IMG/VR virus record: IMGVR_UViG_3300004369_000127
Span: 1 to 26,011 of that record
Length of the DNA: 26,011 nt
Source of the DNA: a virus
Direction: 5' to 3' (one strand)
Below, one piece after another: positions 14,976 to 26,011 of this stretch (position 1 is the stretch's first letter; the number at the start of each line of letters is the position of its first letter). Under the pieces are notes generated by a model. The model had not been told where the DNA came from. It searched no databases and was given only the letters and a program-made list of their open reading frames with translations. The position numbers were made by a program, and so were the translations under genes.

Positions 14976-16454
14976 TTAGACGACCGACTTGGTCAAGTTG
15001 GACTTGACAATGTCGACTTCAATCTTGTCACCGACGCTCGACACGCGGAGACCGACCTTTGCTTTTACGAGGCCATCCGCCAACTGTGAAGTTGGGTTGA
15101 TTGAAGCATCGCATTTCACTGAGTAGCCAAAGTCAATTCGCTTGCCGTTTGCATCAAATGCCTCAAACAAGGCACCGTTGGCGCGCAATGGCTCAAGAAT
15201 TGCAAACAACTTTGATTCAACTGCTGCGAACACCGTGTTGCGGCCATCGATGACGCTGAAGATAAGGTCTTCGAGCGAACGATTTGCATCAACAACAACC
15301 TTGTTGACGACGTCCTGTGCCGTGATATATCTGAAGTTCGTGGTATCCGACGACAGTGAGCGCGCTCCGTAAACGCGAATCGTGTTGTTGATTACACGAA
15401 TTGCATTTACGAAAGCATCATCCAATGCGTCTCCATTTGACTTGTCGATGTCAATTGCTACGCCATTGACGAATTGGGCAACAGAAATCAATCCAGCGCC
15501 TGGCTTGTGTGGGCCAACCTGGGTATGAGCAACCGCTCTTTTTGCTGCGGCATAGCCCACTGGAGGGATTAGTCTATTAACTCCAGCAACAGACGATGGG
15601 GCGTACACCCAGGGATAGAAGTATGCAACGTGCTCGGCAGACGCATTTGCTGCTGAAAGTGTTTGGCCAGCAGTTTTTGCTTCTGCAATGGTGTCATCAA
15701 ATGCACCATTGAGGAAAGCAATTCTGTTGTAGGCGTTGGCATGTGTTGCGAGTGCAGTTTGAACAGTGTTGGCATGAGACTCAGGGCACGCAACAACGCC
15801 GCTACCAAAAGACTCAAGAAATAGTTCTAGGCCAGTTACGTAGTCTGCATCAACAACAGTTTCTTCGTTGTCGTCGCCAGCACCCAATGGGGTCGCAGCA
15901 GAGTCTTGTGGCAGTGTTACCGCAACACCAGAAATGTCTGCAGCAGTAACAACTTTAGAAGCATTGGCGCTTGAGTTGATGCGTCCAACAGCCTGAGCAA
16001 CAGATGAGCAGTTACCAGTGCTGAAGAGAAGTGTTCCACCATCGTAAATCTTGATGATGAAGGTTCCAGAGGCAGTTCCTGGATTTACCGTCTCAACAGT
16101 GATTCCAGTGCTCCATGCGCCAGGGCCATTTGCGGTGATTGTGATGAGGGTTGCACCGCCTTGACCTCCTGCCGAAAGGGTCAAGGTGCCAGTTGTGGCA
16201 TTGGCCCCAACAACGCGCGAAATCCACGCTCTTGTGCCACCCTCTTCAAAAAAACTTTGCACTGTCGGGTGCAAAATTGAGTACGATGCGTACCCGCCGT
16301 AAATTGCCTCGAATTCGGAGAGGCTCGTGACCAATTTTGATTGGTTGGCTGGGCCACGTGCGGCCTTGCCTACGAAGAATGCTTGCGATGTTTCAACTGC
16401 CGATGCGGCATTTGGTCCAACTCTAACTGCTGTTTGTATGCTTACGCCTGGCAT
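14976..16454 (-). CDS. Tail sheath protein (492 aa)
   Basis: This is the contractile sheath subunit and the key evidence for a myovirus-type tail. The N-terminus MPGVSIQTAVRVGPNAASAV followed by FFVGKAARGP and FEAIYGGYASYSILHPTVQS, then FFEEGGTRAWISRVVG, is the usual sheath opening. The C-terminal domain shows RYITAQDVVNKVVVDANRS and EPLRANGALFEAF, then GLRVSSVGDKIEVDIVKSN. Residues about 85-200 are a Gly/Thr-rich beta insertion, as in many long sheath proteins. An AAGG core lies a few bases before the ATG. The tail tube gene follows after 28 bases. Confidence 0.92.
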   Translation of the reverse strand: MPGVSIQTAVRVGPNAASAVETSQAFFVGKAARGPANQSKLVTSLSEFEAIYGGYASYSILHPTVQSFFEEGGTRAWISRVVGANATTGTLTLSAGGQGGATLITITANGPGAWSTGITVETVNPGTASGTFIIKIYDGGTLLFSTGNCSSVAQAVGRINSSANASKVVTAADISGVAVTLPQDSAATPLGAGDDNEETVVDADYVTGLELFLESFGSGVVACPESHANTVQTALATHANAYNRIAFLNGAFDDTIAEAKTAGQTLSAANASAEHVAYFYPWVYAPSSVAGVNRLIPPVGYAAAKRAVAHTQVGPHKPGAGLISVAQFVNGVAIDIDKSNGDALDDAFVNAIRVINNTIRVYGARSLSSDTTNFRYITAQDVVNKVVVDANRSLEDLIFSVIDGRNTVFAAVESKLFAILEPLRANGALFEAFDANGKRIDFGYSVKCDASINPTSQLADGLVKAKVGLRVSSVGDKIEVDIVKSNLTKSVV

Positions 16455-18879: not shown

Positions 18880-19104
18880 TTATCCCCTGCGGCGAAGTCG
18901 ACCGAGAATCCCTCTTGCAACTTCTGTCGCCCTTTCGGTTATGCGGGAAAGTCTTCGGCGGGCTCCGCCAGCACGACCTTCATCTTCATCTCCTTTTTGA
19001 ACAATGGTTTCAAAGCAAACACTCATGCCACGCATGTTGTCGATGTTTAAAGGTCTTTTTCCCCCACCAATACCAAATCTGCCATTTCGTCCGTCATAAT
19101 ACAT
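18880..19104 (-). CDS. Small Arg-rich hypothetical protein (74 aa)
   Basis: I do not recognise it. The N-terminal half is Gly-rich (MYYDGRNGRFGIGGGKRPLN). The C-terminal third is an Arg-rich, probably amphipathic helix (ARRRLSRITERATEVARGIL) ending in GRLRRRG. That end could bind nucleic acid or the inner capsid surface. GGAG lies nine bases before the ATG and just overlaps the stop of a possible 39-aa frame upstream. It is placed directly before the head-tail connector, so a virion role is more likely than an early function, but this is inference. Confidence 0.55.
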   Translation of the reverse strand: MYYDGRNGRFGIGGGKRPLNIDNMRGMSVCFETIVQKGDEDEGRAGGARRRLSRITERATEVARGILGRLRRRG

Positions 19105-19109
19105 GTGGG

Positions 19110-19229
19110 TTAACTCCTCGTGAAAATCGCATTCATTGATGAAGCGTTGTCCCCAAATTTTATCATTATTATGACGTTGGTGATGTCATCTATCTGGATT
19201 GGGGGGCCGTTCAGTCTTAAATGTCTCAA
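19110..19229 (-). CDS. Possible 39-aa protein overlapping the end of the second ParB gene
   Basis: This frame reads RHLRLNGPPIQIDDITNVII then MIKFGDNASSMNAIFTRS and ends with TAA at 19112-19110. The frame is open upstream to a TGA near 19306. The best start is TTG at 19229-19227 with AGGA four bases before it; an internal ATG at 19166 would leave 18 residues. It overlaps the ParB-like gene by 44 bases and fills the otherwise empty 81-base gap. Its stop lies inside the Shine-Dalgarno region of the next gene, as expected for coupled translation. Against it are the non-ATG start and short length. Confidence 0.4.
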   Translation of the reverse strand: MRHLRLNGPPIQIDDITNVIIMIKFGDNASSMNAIFTRS

Positions 19230-19740
19230 CAGTTCCTGCTGGCGCCTCAATTGGAACCCATGCTCTCGAGTACCTGTGTTCAGCAGTATTGAGTTTTTTA
19301 ATCATCGTTCCGTCAAGGAGAAGATGCAATTCGTCGTATTTCATTGACAACAATTTTTCCAAATCCTCCTCCGAGTATTTGTTGCTGTAAATCAAATCCC
19401 TAACAACTCGAGCGACCTTGTGAGCAACCAAACCGCCACGCCCTCGATTTAACTGAATATGCATTAAGGCCGCTTCAAGCGTGTCGCAATCATGGGCGAC
19501 GCAGGGAATGGTGTCACCGATGTGTTTCGACATCTTTTCGTTTTCTTTGACAAGCATCCACCTGTGGTAGCCGTCGATTATTGCATTGTCTGCCTTGCGG
19601 ATAAGGATGGGAAAAATAAATCCATACTGTTGAAGCGATGCTGAAAGTATTAGCAAATCTGGTCGCAGTACATGATTGGATTGCCAGTCGCCTTTCTTGA
19701 GCAAAGAAACTGGCAAATACTCTGTCTTAATCATTACCAT
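19186..19740 (-). CDS. ParB-like (IbrB-type) protein, second of the cassette (184 aa)
   Basis: This is a ParB/sulfiredoxin-fold protein. It opens with IKTEYLPVSLLKKGDW, then SASLQQYGFIFPILIRKADN, AIIDGYHRW (residues 53-61) and a later HIQLNRGRGGLVAHKVARVV. The DGYHRW motif in place of the GERR of chromosome-partitioning ParB, and the QLNRGRG motif, point to the IbrB-like branch, known from pairs with a PAPS-reductase-like partner (IbrA). The motif also recalls the DGQHR box of DndB. The start overlaps the stop of the PP-loop gene by one base (TAATG), so the two are translated together. The family includes regulators and nucleases; which applies here cannot be told from sequence. Confidence 0.78.
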   Translation of the reverse strand: MVMIKTEYLPVSLLKKGDWQSNHVLRPDLLILSASLQQYGFIFPILIRKADNAIIDGYHRWMLVKENEKMSKHIGDTIPCVAHDCDTLEAALMHIQLNRGRGGLVAHKVARVVRDLIYSNKYSEEDLEKLLSMKYDELHLLLDGTMIKKLNTAEHRYSRAWVPIEAPAGTVETFKTERPPNPDR

Positions 19741-20879
19741 TACTCCTCTACGTTGTCTTCGGATGATTCAGATTCCCTAACTGAATGAACTCGTGTTTTG
19801 GGACCAATCGGTGTTGCTGCCACAGAAGGCGCTATTGAGTGCATAAATAAAGAATTTATCAATGCGTAGATAGTGTATGACTTTGGGTCACGAATCTGCT
19901 TTCGTCTATATTCTGCGACAAACGACATTGCGCGTTGTTTTTTTGTGTCGCCAATCATGTATTCATCTATAAATTCCTTTACTCCGTCCCAGCCCATCTT
20001 TGAGTATTTGGAAACCAGTGCCTCGGTATCGAAAACAGACCAGTACCTTCGCTGGGCGTCGATGTACGGGAAACACTCAACGAGTTTGTCGTAGAACTCT
20101 GGCTCGGTTGCCACTACATCACCAAGCCTACGTATTGCGGTTGCGTGAAGCGGTATGCCAACCCTGCTGTTGCTCCCAGTAACTGCCGCTCTGTCGTAGT
20201 ACTCGCAGTAGCGTTCCCCGTGTTCTTCCACAATAAATTTGAATACGTCCGCTGCTTGCCAATCGTATATTACTTTGGCAAACTTCAACGGCATTTTGCG
20301 TTTCATTTTGTATGGAGTAACTATGTAATTTTCGTGAAGTTTTTGCACCAATGAGCGATAACGGACCATTGACTCATTTGCTCTAACGCCAGTTATAAAG
20401 GCAACATTTCCTATCTTGCCTTGCATCGTGTAGTAATCAGGATGCTCTGGCATGTAGGTCTGGCCGCTAATCCCAAAACTTGCGGCGGATATTGCGTATG
20501 GTGGCATCTCTCTGACTAATCTGCCTTCCGCACGGCGTTTTTCGCTCCACAAAATTACGGATTGGCGCCTACCTAAAACCCATACCTCGGAGCCGTGAGC
20601 GAGGCAGTACCACTCCATGTCAACCCACGGCTTTTCGCGTATGTATTCGACATATTCAATGACCGTAGGACTCACCATTTCTTCGTCTCTAAATATGACT
20701 TTCACTGGACCCAGTCCGCGTTCTTCGTGGACTTCTTTGGCCAAGAGCAATACAGCAGTTGAATCCTTACCACCAGAGAACTGAATGCAAACCGTATCGA
20801 ACGTGTCGTATACGTGCCTAATTCGTTGACGCGCTGCTTCTACGCAATCAATGTCGAGGAATAAACGTTGCCGTGTCAT
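19740..20879 (-). CDS. PAPS-reductase-like PP-loop protein, IbrA-type (379 aa)
   Basis: The ATP-pyrophosphatase PP-loop SGGKDST is at residues 35-41, after a helix and the strand TVCIQF. Further family signs are VIFRDEEMVSPTVIEYVEYI, FITGVRANES (161-170) with MVRYRS after it, and YDWQAADVFKFI (205-216), equivalent to the W-x3-DVW-x-YI of PAPS reductases. Members activate a substrate by adenylation, and some then transfer sulfur. Cysteines at 12, 31, 92, 225 and 269 are scattered, and I see no clustered Fe-S motif of the DndC kind. The last 60 residues are variable and end acidic (SESSEDNVEE). The gene overlaps the first ParB gene by four bases and the second by one. Substrate unknown. Confidence 0.84.
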   Translation of the reverse strand: MTRQRLFLDIDCVEAARQRIRHVYDTFDTVCIQFSGGKDSTAVLLLAKEVHEERGLGPVKVIFRDEEMVSPTVIEYVEYIREKPWVDMEWYCLAHGSEVWVLGRRQSVILWSEKRRAEGRLVREMPPYAISAASFGISGQTYMPEHPDYYTMQGKIGNVAFITGVRANESMVRYRSLVQKLHENYIVTPYKMKRKMPLKFAKVIYDWQAADVFKFIVEEHGERYCEYYDRAAVTGSNSRVGIPLHATAIRRLGDVVATEPEFYDKLVECFPYIDAQRRYWSVFDTEALVSKYSKMGWDGVKEFIDEYMIGDTKKQRAMSFVAEYRRKQIRDPKSYTIYALINSLFMHSIAPSVAATPIGPKTRVHSVRESESSEDNVEE

Positions 20880-21670
20880 GCGTCAGTATGCGCATCAATA
20901 AAATTTATAAGTCGTTCAGAAGTCGTTGTTCCATCAATTGACGGGTCATTGCGCAACCAACGGATAAAGTCGTACCAACGACGTTGTTGCTCTGGTGAAT
21001 CAAAAACAACCTGGACAGAGACAATCGCTTGAGGTGCTGAGCCTGGGACGGCAATAGACGAGCCTTGCAGAACTACATCTTTTTGGTCTACGTCTCTTGG
21101 AACAACAAGTTTTCTCTCGCCGTCCTCGTCTTCCTCGACCAACGACGATATTTGCCTACCAACTTCATCTGTTACTTGTGAGGGGTTTGGGACAATGGTT
21201 GGAGGAATGTAGGTCGAGGTAATTAGTTCTTCGTTTGATTTTATTGTGGCACGCTCATCCATCGCCGCCATTTCAAATTCATCCCAACCGAGACCACCCC
21301 AAAGGTCGCTGTAGTCAACCGAGACTTCCATGAGCATTTTTTGTAACATATCGTCGTCGGTGTACCCGAGTTCCATTGTTCGGTTGTCAGCGAGGGCAAA
21401 GGCGATGGCGTGCTTGTCGTCGCCCTCTATGAACACGACGGCAATCTTGTCCCAACCAAGTTGCTTGGCTGCCATTAATTGATGGTTGCCAGCAATCACT
21501 GTCGCCGTGCCGTCGTCATTCTTTTTGGCAACAATAGGCTTTACTTGTCCAAACTCTTCATATGAGGCGACGATGGCATCCACATTCCCCTTGCGTGGGT
21601 TGTTGTCTAGATGCATCAACTTCTCCACGGGAAAAGCCATCTGCTCCAAAGAGGAGTGAATATTGCTCAT
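20876..21670 (-). CDS. ParB-like nuclease-domain protein, first of the cassette (264 aa)
   Basis: Residues 12-100 form a ParB/sulfiredoxin domain: FPVEKLMHLDNNPRKGNVDA, SYEEFGQVKPIVAKKND, TVIAGNHQLMAAKQLGW (58-73) and ALADNRTMEL (92-101). The GNHQLMAA box is the variant found in phage ParB-like proteins, where it replaces GERRxRA. The middle is acidic and polar. The C-terminal 55 residues hold a second small domain (SVQVVFDSPEQQRRWYDFIR). The start overlaps the upstream coiled-coil gene by four bases and the stop overlaps the PP-loop gene by four. Two such ParB-like proteins flanking one PP-loop enzyme is unusual. Its domain differs clearly from that of the other ParB-like protein, so this is not a recent duplication. 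DNA binding, nicking or regulation are all possible. Confidence 0.8.
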   Translation of the reverse strand: MSNIHSSLEQMAFPVEKLMHLDNNPRKGNVDAIVASYEEFGQVKPIVAKKNDDGTATVIAGNHQLMAAKQLGWDKIAVVFIEGDDKHAIAFALADNRTMELGYTDDDMLQKMLMEVSVDYSDLWGGLGWDEFEMAAMDERATIKSNEELITSTYIPPTIVPNPSQVTDEVGRQISSLVEEDEDGERKLVVPRDVDQKDVVLQGSSIAVPGSAPQAIVSVQVVFDSPEQQRRWYDFIRWLRNDPSIDGTTTSERLINFIDAHTDA

Positions 21671-22005
21671 ACCTGAACCCTAACGTTTGCGTTTAGCGTT
21701 CTGAGGGAATCCATGGATGTGCGCACCGAAAGTAATTTTTCGCGTTTGGATTTTACTAATGCTTCTGCAATCCTGTAGTCATAATCAAAGTCTGCCATTT
21801 TGTAGTCCGCCCATGCCTCTCGTTCCTTGATGGAACCTTTGGCCGAAAGGTACTCCTTGGCCCAATTCGCCTTGAAGAGAGACTCTTTCTTCGCCGCATC
21901 GGTGGCCAATTTTTCAAATGCTTCTGTTTCTTCTTCCAGTATGTCCATCATCCGCAGTAATTCTTGTTCAATTTCCACTTGGCTTATTGGAGCATTTCTG
22001 GCCAT
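21667..22005 (-). CDS. Small coiled-coil protein of the recombination block (112 aa)
   Basis: The preferred start is ATG at 22005, because AAGGAG at 22020-22015 lies nine bases before it and the upstream resolvase gene stops at 22008. A longer frame from 22083 would overlap that gene by 76 bases. The protein is almost wholly helical and charged: QVEIEQELLRMMDILEEETE, FEKLATDAAKKESLFKANWA, then YDYRIAEALVKSKREKLLSV and SLRTLNANVRVQV at the end. Proteins with this ending are common and unassigned in actinobacterial phages. Its place beside the resolvase suggests a DNA-processing accessory role, which is only inference. Confidence 0.7.
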   Translation of the reverse strand: MARNAPISQVEIEQELLRMMDILEEETEAFEKLATDAAKKESLFKANWAKEYLSAKGSIKEREAWADYKMADFDYDYRIAEALVKSKREKLLSVRTSMDSLRTLNANVRVQV

Positions 22006-22007
22006 CG

Positions 22008-22562
22008 CTAATTTCTCCTTAGGGCGTTGAATAGTGGTGCCCAATCTACCTTCTCGAGAGCCGCTAATTGTGCTTTGGACCACTTATGTGGAGATTCATT
22101 CAGTTTGGCATACGCCATTTGCTCCAGCACCCAAGCATCGCATTCGTCGTTGCCACATTCAGTGTTGAAGCGTGTGGGGAACTGCTGCATAAGGGAATGT
22201 AGGACATCCTCTTTATTCGCATTGCCGTTGCCAGTGGCAAATTTGGCCCTGCATTTTGGTGGGATTTCCACCACTAAAAATCCAGCCTTGTATAAGGCGA
22301 CCTTTACGACTCCACCCAGTTCCCCAAGCGAGTGGGCTCTAGAGAATTTGGAACCGAATGAATAACCCTCAACCATTGCCGCCAAGCACCTGGAGTTGAT
22401 TGCGTGGTTGACTACCCTTTCGGATATTTCAACAAGCCTTTCCACCCCTCGCGTCTTGGGCTTTATGGAGAATGTCTCACCATTGACACTTACCCCAGTG
22501 GAGGTCAAGGACAGGTCAAGCCCAATAAATCTGGGGTGCTCAATCTGCGCCATGTCACTCAT
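22008..22562 (-). CDS. RuvC-like Holliday junction resolvase (about 184 aa)
   Basis: This is an RNase H-fold nuclease expected to cut branched DNA during recombination or before packaging. From the ATG at 22562, RFIGLDLSLTSTGVSV gives D16, AAMVEGYSFGSK gives E65, and TECGNDECDAWVLEQ gives D139 and D142. These four acidic residues have almost the same spacing as the catalytic set of E. coli RuvC. GNGNANKEDVLHSLMQQF is a further family feature. An in-frame ATG at 22622 would overlap the HNH gene by 50 bases; 22562 lies ten bases after its stop and is preferred, although no clear ribosome site is seen. Phage RuvC-like resolvases often sit with annealing proteins, as here. Confidence 0.82.
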   Translation of the reverse strand: MSDMAQIEHPRFIGLDLSLTSTGVSVNGETFSIKPKTRGVERLVEISERVVNHAINSRCLAAMVEGYSFGSKFSRAHSLGELGGVVKVALYKAGFLVVEIPPKCRAKFATGNGNANKEDVLHSLMQQFPTRFNTECGNDECDAWVLEQMAYAKLNESPHKWSKAQLAALEKVDWAPLFNALRRN

Positions 22563-25373: not shown

Positions 25374-26011
25374 TCACACCACGATACTTGCTCTTTTTCT
25401 TTGCGGCAACCCCAATCCAGTCAAATAGTTGAATGCGCCAGTTGCGGAGTCGACTTGGTCATCATGGGGGGCGGACTCGGGAAATGCCGACAGTTCGTCA
25501 AGCCAGTCGCTTAACCAGGCACCTCGCACAACTCGCACGTTGCCATTAGCCAAAGCAGCAGCAAATGGCCTTGCTCTTGTGATTTTGTCGCCAGTTGACC
25601 TGTTTGCTCCAAAATCAAATCCTGGAACGACGTATCGTGCGTATTGGTCCATCAAGGACTTGCCAGACGAACCAGGCTCTTGCTCCATCCTTATCGGTGT
25701 CGCTACGCCATCCTCATAGGCGGTTTGGGCAACAAATTGTTCTACCTTGTCAGACTTAACCCGTTTCTTCTTAACGTCAAGCACATAGGCGACTCCTTGG
25801 TCAAACAGCATCAGCGTACCCACCGTCCAGTCAGGGTCTGGGGTTGACTGATTGGGCTCAGTGGCCGCCAAGTCCCAAAACCTCACTATCCGTGCCGACG
25901 ACGTAAAAGTCGGGATTTCGTCAATATCAATGATTACCGCCGAAGTTCGGTCAAACATGGTGCCCAGAGTCGTCGACCACCAGTCACCCTCCTCGAGCCT
26001 CCTGCGCTCTA
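25374..26011 (-). CDS. terL: Terminase large subunit, C-terminal nuclease part (5' end outside window)
   Basis: This is the DNA-packaging motor's nuclease domain. The frame stays open from the first in-window ATG (25958) to the window edge, reading ERRRLEEGDWWSTTLGT, so the gene continues beyond base 26011 and the ATPase domain is not visible. Family signs are RIVRFWDLAATEP with the first metal-binding Asp (codon near 25872), DPDWTVGTLM, RMEQEPGSSGKSLMDQYAR, and APHDDQVDSATGAFNYL with the last acidic pair (near 25460). This is the RNase H-like fold of the terminase_6C type. The protein cleaves concatemeric DNA at the start and end of packaging. It is followed by recombination genes, not by portal and capsid genes. 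Confidence 0.86.
   Translation of the reverse strand, partial: ERRRLEEGDWWSTTLGTMFDRTSAVIIDIDEIPTFTSSARIVRFWDLAATEPNQSTPDPDWTVGTLMLFDQGVAYVLDVKKKRVKSDKVEQFVAQTAYEDGVATPIRMEQEPGSSGKSLMDQYARYVVPGFDFGANRSTGDKITRARPFAAALANGNVRVVRGAWLSDWLDELSAFPESAPHDDQVDSATGAFNYLTGLGLPQRKRASIVV

Follow-up and report, generated by a model that had tools for sequence, protein, structure and literature searches.

A three-gene unit encoding a ParB-like protein (ParB-U, 264 amino acids (aa)), a PP-loop protein of the 3'-phosphoadenosine 5'-phosphosulfate (PAPS) reductase family (PP, 379 aa) and a second ParB-like protein (ParB-D, 184 aa) was analysed on the minus strand of IMG/VR virus record IMGVR_UViG_3300004369_000127, the whole analysed stretch of which (positions 1 to 26,011) is referred to below as the window. 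ParB-U was found to be the shared first gene of several phage DNA-modification sets, of which PP and ParB-D form an exchangeable part, and it is considered rather probable that the unit represents a phage DNA-modification module. The genes, their conservation, their folds, the exchange of cassettes and the specificity of a C-terminal tail of ParB-U were all established by computation. The window is a 26-kb fragment, and absence of a gene from the entire viral genome can therefore not be claimed from it.

The three open reading frames are tightly joined, the ParB-U stop and PP start codons being combined in ATGA (a 4-base overlap) and the PP stop and ParB-D start codons in TAATG (a 1-base overlap). 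Their characteristic motifs are SGGKDST in PP, AGNHQLMAA in ParB-U, and DGYHRW and QLNRGRG in ParB-D. An earlier note on the window had listed these coordinates, motifs and overlaps, all of which proved right on the minus strand, and had proposed that the genes are co-translated as a single unit, which is supported.

The evidence for cassette exchange is derived from Bclasvirinae and Gordonia phages, in which the gene sets located before the terminase differ and begin with a homologue of ParB-U. This slot holds ParB-U, PP and ParB-D in Athena; ParB-U followed by DpdA-like, QueC, QueD, QueE and FolE genes in LizLemon; ParB-U and a preQ0 set in Mycobacterium phage Typha; ParB-U and a preQ0 set plus a kinase in Funsized; ParB-U, Tet_JBP, an amino acid:DNA transferase (ADDT) and a kinase in Lolalove and MossRose; and ParB-U, an ABC/acetyltransferase (GNAT) protein and a formyltransferase-like protein in the Gordonia phages NHagos and Shatter. 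Suffolk, in which only a kinase precedes the terminase and no such set is present, is also without ParB-U. The ParB-U homologues leading other sets score 117-208 bits against the ParB-U model for the first five phages, and the model matches the first gene in seven other-set phages, the gene preceding Mom and the ParB portion of a fusion with a methylase, so that the arrangement of a ParB-U homologue first and modification enzymes next recurs across these sets. The fusion occurs in phi1_186018 (Coopervirus), where a ParB-U domain 89% identical to that of Lolalove is joined to an N6_N4 DNA methylase, and the Mom arrangement (ParB-U followed by Mom, 1.6e-46) is found outside the terminase slot in Microbacterium phage Appa. 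A PP gene is absent throughout the genomes of LizLemon, Lolalove, Funsized and NHagos. Virion DNA of Rosebush, which belongs to the same genus as LizLemon and to the preQ0 group, contains dPreQ0 at ~28% of G (PMC6884629). Because PP and ParB-D are exchanged with known or predicted modification sets behind ParB-U, they would appear to represent another interchangeable DNA-modification chemistry. DNA modification, the leading idea of the earlier note, thereby gains support, and its proposal of two ParB-like partners is refined in that ParB-U is the shared first gene and PP with ParB-D the part exchanged. As a separate observation, the ABC-ATPase/GNAT and formyltransferase-like genes of NHagos (L212:630-1829) and Shatter (L223:603-1808) are possibly a further DNA-modification set.

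ParB-U matches Noc/ParB structures by profile comparison (E 4e-18), and its C-terminal tail distinguishes it from the ParB proteins that lead other sets. A model of this tail, covering the last ~50 residues and built from the virus group of the window alone, detects seven of seven PP-linked ParB-U proteins (from named phages and a plasmid) versus none of 12 from other gene sets, a count that overstates independence because the proteins are related; a model of the N-terminal domain gives equal scores in both groups. Bacillus and Rhizobium are, however, far removed from the actinophages. The Athena tail is present in 70 of 50,697 phage records, of the genera Mycobacterium, Arthrobacter and Bacillus only, which match the genera holding most full-length PP genes, the match being made at the level of genera and counts and not record by record. 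From the restriction of the tail to PP-linked ParB-U proteins we infer that it probably docks the PP-loop enzyme set. Gordonia phage UBSmoodge (L228:3926-5506) has a ParB-U domain joined to DUF4417 in one protein, the gene lying immediately behind a RuvC-like one.

Conservation of the unit was assessed in two samples of relatives. In the nearest, which consists of 80 virus loci with PP identities of 66-92%, ParB-D is located directly after PP or within ~500 bases of it in all 80, and ParB-U precedes PP wherever the contig extends, usually overlapping it and sometimes separated by an insertion of no more than 2.4 kb. The wider sample contained 133 loci from bacterial genomes, other viruses and named phages, loci with enough flanking room being regarded as assessable. 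ParB-D was located at most 2 kb from PP in 127 of 128 assessable loci, and ParB-U at most 5 kb from PP in 109 of 117; given its retention in 80/80 and 127/128 loci, the pairing of ParB-D with PP is not due to chance. When PP proteins were clustered at 60% identity, ParB-D was nearby in all 18 clusters and ParB-U in 13. The exceptions for ParB-U are contig L091, three near-identical contigs (in one of them, as L208, ParB-U was located upstream at a distance of several kb) and, among phages of the IbrA type, the four that are most distant. The expectation that relatives keep the three genes together, lack of which had been named as grounds for abandoning the proposal, is thus borne out. The full unit is present in Arthrobacter phage Laroye, Mycobacterium phages Athena and prophi79-1, Bacillus phage 031MP004 and Rhizobium phage L338C, as well as in contigs from Nocardia and on a plasmid of Amycolatopsis that carries phage genes. 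Relatives of PP occur in 538 plasmid records and 213 phage records, and two loci were obtained when viruses were scanned with PP of Rhizobium as query.

A second anchor, the phrog_1389 gene which adjoins ParB-U in the window and is a conserved neighbour of the unit in the virus group of the window only, was then used in place of PP, yielding 57 assessable loci of which 42 have the unit in place. Among the 15 without a nearby PP gene, eight contigs hold PP and ParB-D elsewhere, up to ~43 kb away and with ParB-D always directly behind the relocated PP; ParB-U and the PP/ParB-D pair are retained together in these eight rearranged genomes despite the broken order. In the other seven contigs, several of them short, PP is absent from the available sequence, and two of these have ParB-D alone. 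The notion that the ParB-U slot serves as a swap site in the window's own virus group was mostly withdrawn, eight of the 15 apparent absences being relocations; L207 alone has DNA methylases at this slot, with PP tens of kb away. In many actinobacterial and Firmicutes relatives ParB-D is followed by a small SAM-methyltransferase-like gene (motifs DLGSxTGLL, VARRVxPE and EGR; weak Pfam matches) and a gene for a Cys-rich HNH-like protein. The methyltransferase-like gene was recorded in Gram-positive phages at loci L082, L084, L085, L096-L101, L103, L105, L107, L108 and L111-L113. The presence of these two genes beside the unit counts in favour of DNA modification, but both are absent from the window and are therefore treated as accessories.

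PP is assigned to the PAPS-reductase branch of the PP-loop ATP pyrophosphatases by its motif, by its match to PF01507 (8.2e-11, 42.7 bits, cut-off 22.5) and by a fold match of Z 13-16; it also matches phrog_2302 (5.6e-76). A search of the PDB with the single PP sequence gave no matches, relatives being found by means of a profile and a model. The AlphaFold2 model (predicted local distance difference test (pLDDT) 85.3, predicted template modelling score 0.81) is closest over residues ~6-258 to FAD synthase (Z 16), adenosine 5'-phosphosulfate (APS) reductase (14.4) and CysD (14.1), with TilS and NcsA also among the nearest folds, and FAD synthase shares the DW..D and YC..YD segments. Invariant in an alignment of 42 PP sequences are SGGKDS, D65, E67, W111, R123, G164, R166, E169, R173, D206, W207, D211, Y228, R239 and P260, which are kept in all nine named phages compared, out to Gaia and Streptococcus phage CHPC1148 (20-21% identity). 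The absence of clustered cysteines, remarked upon in the earlier note, is confirmed: the five cysteines of the window's PP (residues 12, 31, 92, 225 and 269) are scattered and include no CxxC pair, cluster or dyad, and C225, the only near-invariant one in this branch, gives way to another residue in distant members, FCL-2 among them. PP does not qualify as a true PAPS/APS reductase, having no match to a curated CysH NCBIfam and no C-terminal catalytic cysteine, its last cysteine (269 of 379) not being conserved. Comparison with the PADLOC defence families gave weak local matches only. Since FAD synthase and CysD, each of which transfers AMP to an oxyanion, are among the nearest folds, PP is predicted to be an adenylating enzyme. 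At L133:3759-5861 (also in L134 and L135) an intein-like insert of ~325 aa interrupts the PP gene in frame; it separates DMEWYC from LPTG, at a site corresponding to residue 92 of the window's PP.

ParB-D matches phrog_2159 (5.7e-27), and PF02195 below the Pfam cut-off. Its AlphaFold2 model (pLDDT 84.9) has a ParB/KorB-like fold with a helix-turn-helix, and was matched to KorB (Z 13.0 over 142 residues), ParB-CDP (12.7) and Noc (12.6), the helix-turn-helix region itself matching the KorB DNA-binding domain 1r71 (Z 5.3) and the ParB-parS complex 6s6h (Z 3.9). The DGYHR box occupies the position of the nucleotide-binding GxxR motif of ParB, and the boxes of both ParB-U and ParB-D fall where ParB proteins bind nucleotides. 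The predicted combination of a nucleotide-binding fold and a helix-turn-helix is that of the ParB-CTPase fold, and ParB-D is accordingly described as a putative nucleotide-binding protein of ParB/KorB type with a helix-turn-helix. ParB-type folds bind CTP, ATP or GTP, and nucleotide specificity within the superfamily is poorly predicted from sequence or by AlphaFold 3 (PMC12704722). In Mycobacterium phage Gaia, a gene adjoining a PP-loop gene (L090:5317-6216) encodes a fusion of an IbrB-like ParB with an ectoine-synthase-like cupin.

What can be proposed on function rests on association, fold and motif. PP would split ATP at the alpha phosphate and place AMP on a target group, which may then be replaced or decorated to give a non-sulfur DNA modification. 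ParB-D may hold or scan DNA for the enzyme, switching with the bound nucleoside triphosphate (NTP), and ParB-U would be a general adaptor or switch common to several unrelated phage DNA-modification sets, coupled to the PP-loop set probably by its tail; the likely benefit would be protection of phage DNA from host nucleases. Known members of the branch to which PP belongs act on oxyanions, namely sulfate, FMN phosphate and, in the case of DndC, DNA phosphate. A more specific but unlikely version is that PP adenylates backbone phosphates of phage DNA to yield a sulfur-free backbone modification, methylated further where the linked methyltransferase-like gene is present, with ParB-U as an adaptor whose exchangeable tail serves different enzymes.

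Several points weigh against a DNA-modification module. Function is deduced from association, and the literature searched provided no DNA measurement for any phage with this unit. The exchanged Bclasvirinae sets occupy one common locus and are hence not independent samples, and in the virus group of the window the situation at the ParB-U slot is less clear-cut: most of the apparent absences were relocations, and other insertions, such as that in L188, are not DNA-modification genes. ParB proteins are common in phages, so that some co-location is expected. Contig L091 has PP without either ParB gene, contigs G001 and G002 have ParB-D without PP, and more distant IbrA-type relatives lack ParB-U and have SNF2 helicases as neighbours or reside on plasmids of E. 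coli. The chance that one of the rival explanations applies (control of expression, a role in packaging or takeover, phosphorothioation drawing on host sulfur, or a substrate that is RNA or a small molecule) falls somewhat short of even.

The unit might control transcription of phage or host genes through binding of DNA by ParB-D. PP and ParB-D are of the type of the IbrA/IbrB pair, for which co-activation of prophage genes has been reported in E. coli, and the co-activator label has been attached in annotations and papers; the predicted helix-turn-helix of ParB-D would fit. Such control leaves without reason both the intact PP-loop site kept in all relatives and the sharing of ParB-U with DpdA, Tet/ADDT, Mom and methylase sets, and the co-activator effect could itself be indirect, so that this explanation is thought unlikely. 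Similarly unlikely is a packaging or takeover factor which acts on DNA ends, terminase or nucleotide pools and leaves no chemical mark on DNA. The unit does lie directly before the terminase in Laroye, Athena and prophi79-1, and in the window between the replication/recombination block and the structural genes, and members of the ParB family are capable of DNA nicking or NTP hydrolysis (see the discussion in PMC5512222), but the pre-terminase slot also carries the preQ0 set that modifies virion DNA in Rosebush (PMC6884629), and the Bacillus and Rhizobium phages have no terminase adjacent to the unit. That the enzyme adenylates RNA, tRNA or a small molecule, as FAD synthase or TilS would suggest given their place (with NcsA) among the nearest folds, appears very unlikely, since DNA is favoured by the presence of two ParB partners, of which one has a helix-turn-helix, and by the exchange with DNA-modification sets. 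Least probable is phosphorothioation in which PP acts like DndC with sulfur from host IscS. DndB is likewise ParB-like, weak DndC and BrxP matches extend across the PP-loop segment, and DndA can be replaced by IscS (PMC10853773), but PP scores 21.6 bits against the curated DndC model TIGR03183 (cut-off 290.4) and has the cysteine pattern described above, and no cysteine desulfurase was found in eight complete phage genomes, although a host could supply one and the window is a fragment. As a simple reading phosphorothioation is thus rejected, in agreement with the earlier note, which had regarded it as unsupported in its plain form.

The features of the window are listed below. On the minus strand the order is the end of the terminase large subunit gene (25374-25958), an Erf-like annealing protein, an exonuclease, an HNH protein, a RuvC-like resolvase, the phrog_1389 gene (overlapping ParB-U by 4 bases), the three-gene unit and then structural genes.

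Table. Features of the three-gene unit and of neighbouring genes, in window coordinates.
Feature	Position	Strand	Evidence or remark
ParB-U, ParB_N-domain protein with GNHQLMAA and LADNRT boxes	20876-21670	-	PF02195 1.3e-07; phrog_723 1.1e-37
C-terminal tail of ParB-U, residues ~212-258	20897-21037	-	specific to PP-associated ParB-U proteins
PP, PP-loop ATP-pyrophosphatase-fold protein, PAPS-reductase family, IbrA-like, 379 aa	19740-20879	-	PF01507; phrog_2302
PP-loop motif SGGKDST, PP residues 35-41	20757-20777	-	SGGKDS invariant in PP alignment
ParB-D, IbrB-like ParB protein, 184 aa	19186-19740	-	phrog_2159; nucleotide-binding fold and helix-turn-helix in model
DGYHR box of ParB-D, residues 56-60	19561-19575	-	G57 and R60 invariant in ParB-D alignment
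Helix-turn-helix region of ParB-D, residues 106-142	19315-19425	-	model helices; KorB/ParB-parS structural matches
phrog_1389 gene, co-oriented, upstream of ParB-U	21667-22083	-	phrog_1389 8.5e-09
Tail sheath, among structural genes beyond ParB-D	14976-16454

The gene after ParB-D in the window (18880-19104, minus strand) encodes a small, very basic protein, and that in other relatives (L029-L081) a protein of 150-295 aa, often with a lysine-rich, histone H1-like KKAAKKA tail. A CoA-transferase-like gene (CaiB/BaiF type by eye) follows ParB-U at L188:7381-8634. The terminase of Athena (L083:2696-5236, 846 aa) aligns to relatives in two pieces that cover only ~66-71% of its length, which an insert such as an intein would fit.

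If the unit is indeed a DNA-modification module, a widespread pair annotated only as PAPS reductase/IbrA and ParB becomes a testable prediction, and a DNA modification would be expected in laboratory phages, Mycobacterium phage Athena for instance. A class of phage ParB proteins would acquire a suggested role as shared front-end for many DNA-modification enzymes, with the tail of ParB-U telling which enzyme set is served. The modifications present on phage DNA determine which defences of the host are ineffective, and they also supply new enzymes. The literature searched, in which subscription journals and bioRxiv were barely covered and an earlier prediction is thus possible, contained no description of the unit of three genes, of the way it is exchanged with known sets, of its tail or of its product.

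Among known systems, the IbrA/IbrB pair of E. coli and phages consists of the same two genes, a PAPS-reductase-type protein beside an IbrB-like ParB, and the relation to it that the earlier note had pointed out is upheld by scores of 249 bits for E. coli IbrA and 112 bits for IbrB against the PP and ParB-D models. Distant IbrA-type proteins share SGGKDS, D65, E67, R123, G164, R166, E169, R173, D206, W207, R239 and P260 with PP, although identity to the most distant members is 20-25% and the window's PP has no match to Pfam DUF3440 (E up to 1), a domain against which the Streptococcus phage IbrA scores 176 bits. The tailed ParB-U partner, found with the branch of the window and absent from the IbrA-type loci examined, sets this branch apart from other IbrA/IbrB-like pairs. 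DndB/DndC likewise combines a PAPS-reductase-type PP-loop protein with a ParB-family partner, and the DG-HR box of ParB-D is similar to the DGQHR box of DndB, whereas the cysteine ligands and dyad of DndC are missing from PP. FAD synthase (PAPS domain) and CysD, though ranking with the nearest folds (Z 16 and 14), are ~17-19% identical to PP and occur in a different operon context, and most structural matches of this kind leave the helical C-terminal part of PP beyond residue 258 uncovered. ParB-D is predicted to resemble the ParB/Noc/KorB CTP switches in its nucleotide-binding fold and helix-turn-helix, and its last 35-40 residues, modelled with low confidence, stand where those proteins have their dimerisation domain. 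ParBc proteins have been noted near the phage modification genes CmoX/CmoY, with their role left open (PMC12783734), a link taken from that paper only. The DpdA/preQ0, Tet/ADDT/kinase, Mom and ParB-methylase sets share the ParB-U core domain with the present unit and, in actinophages, also its genomic position, but employ different enzymes, and the PP-linked ParB-U has a tail of its own.

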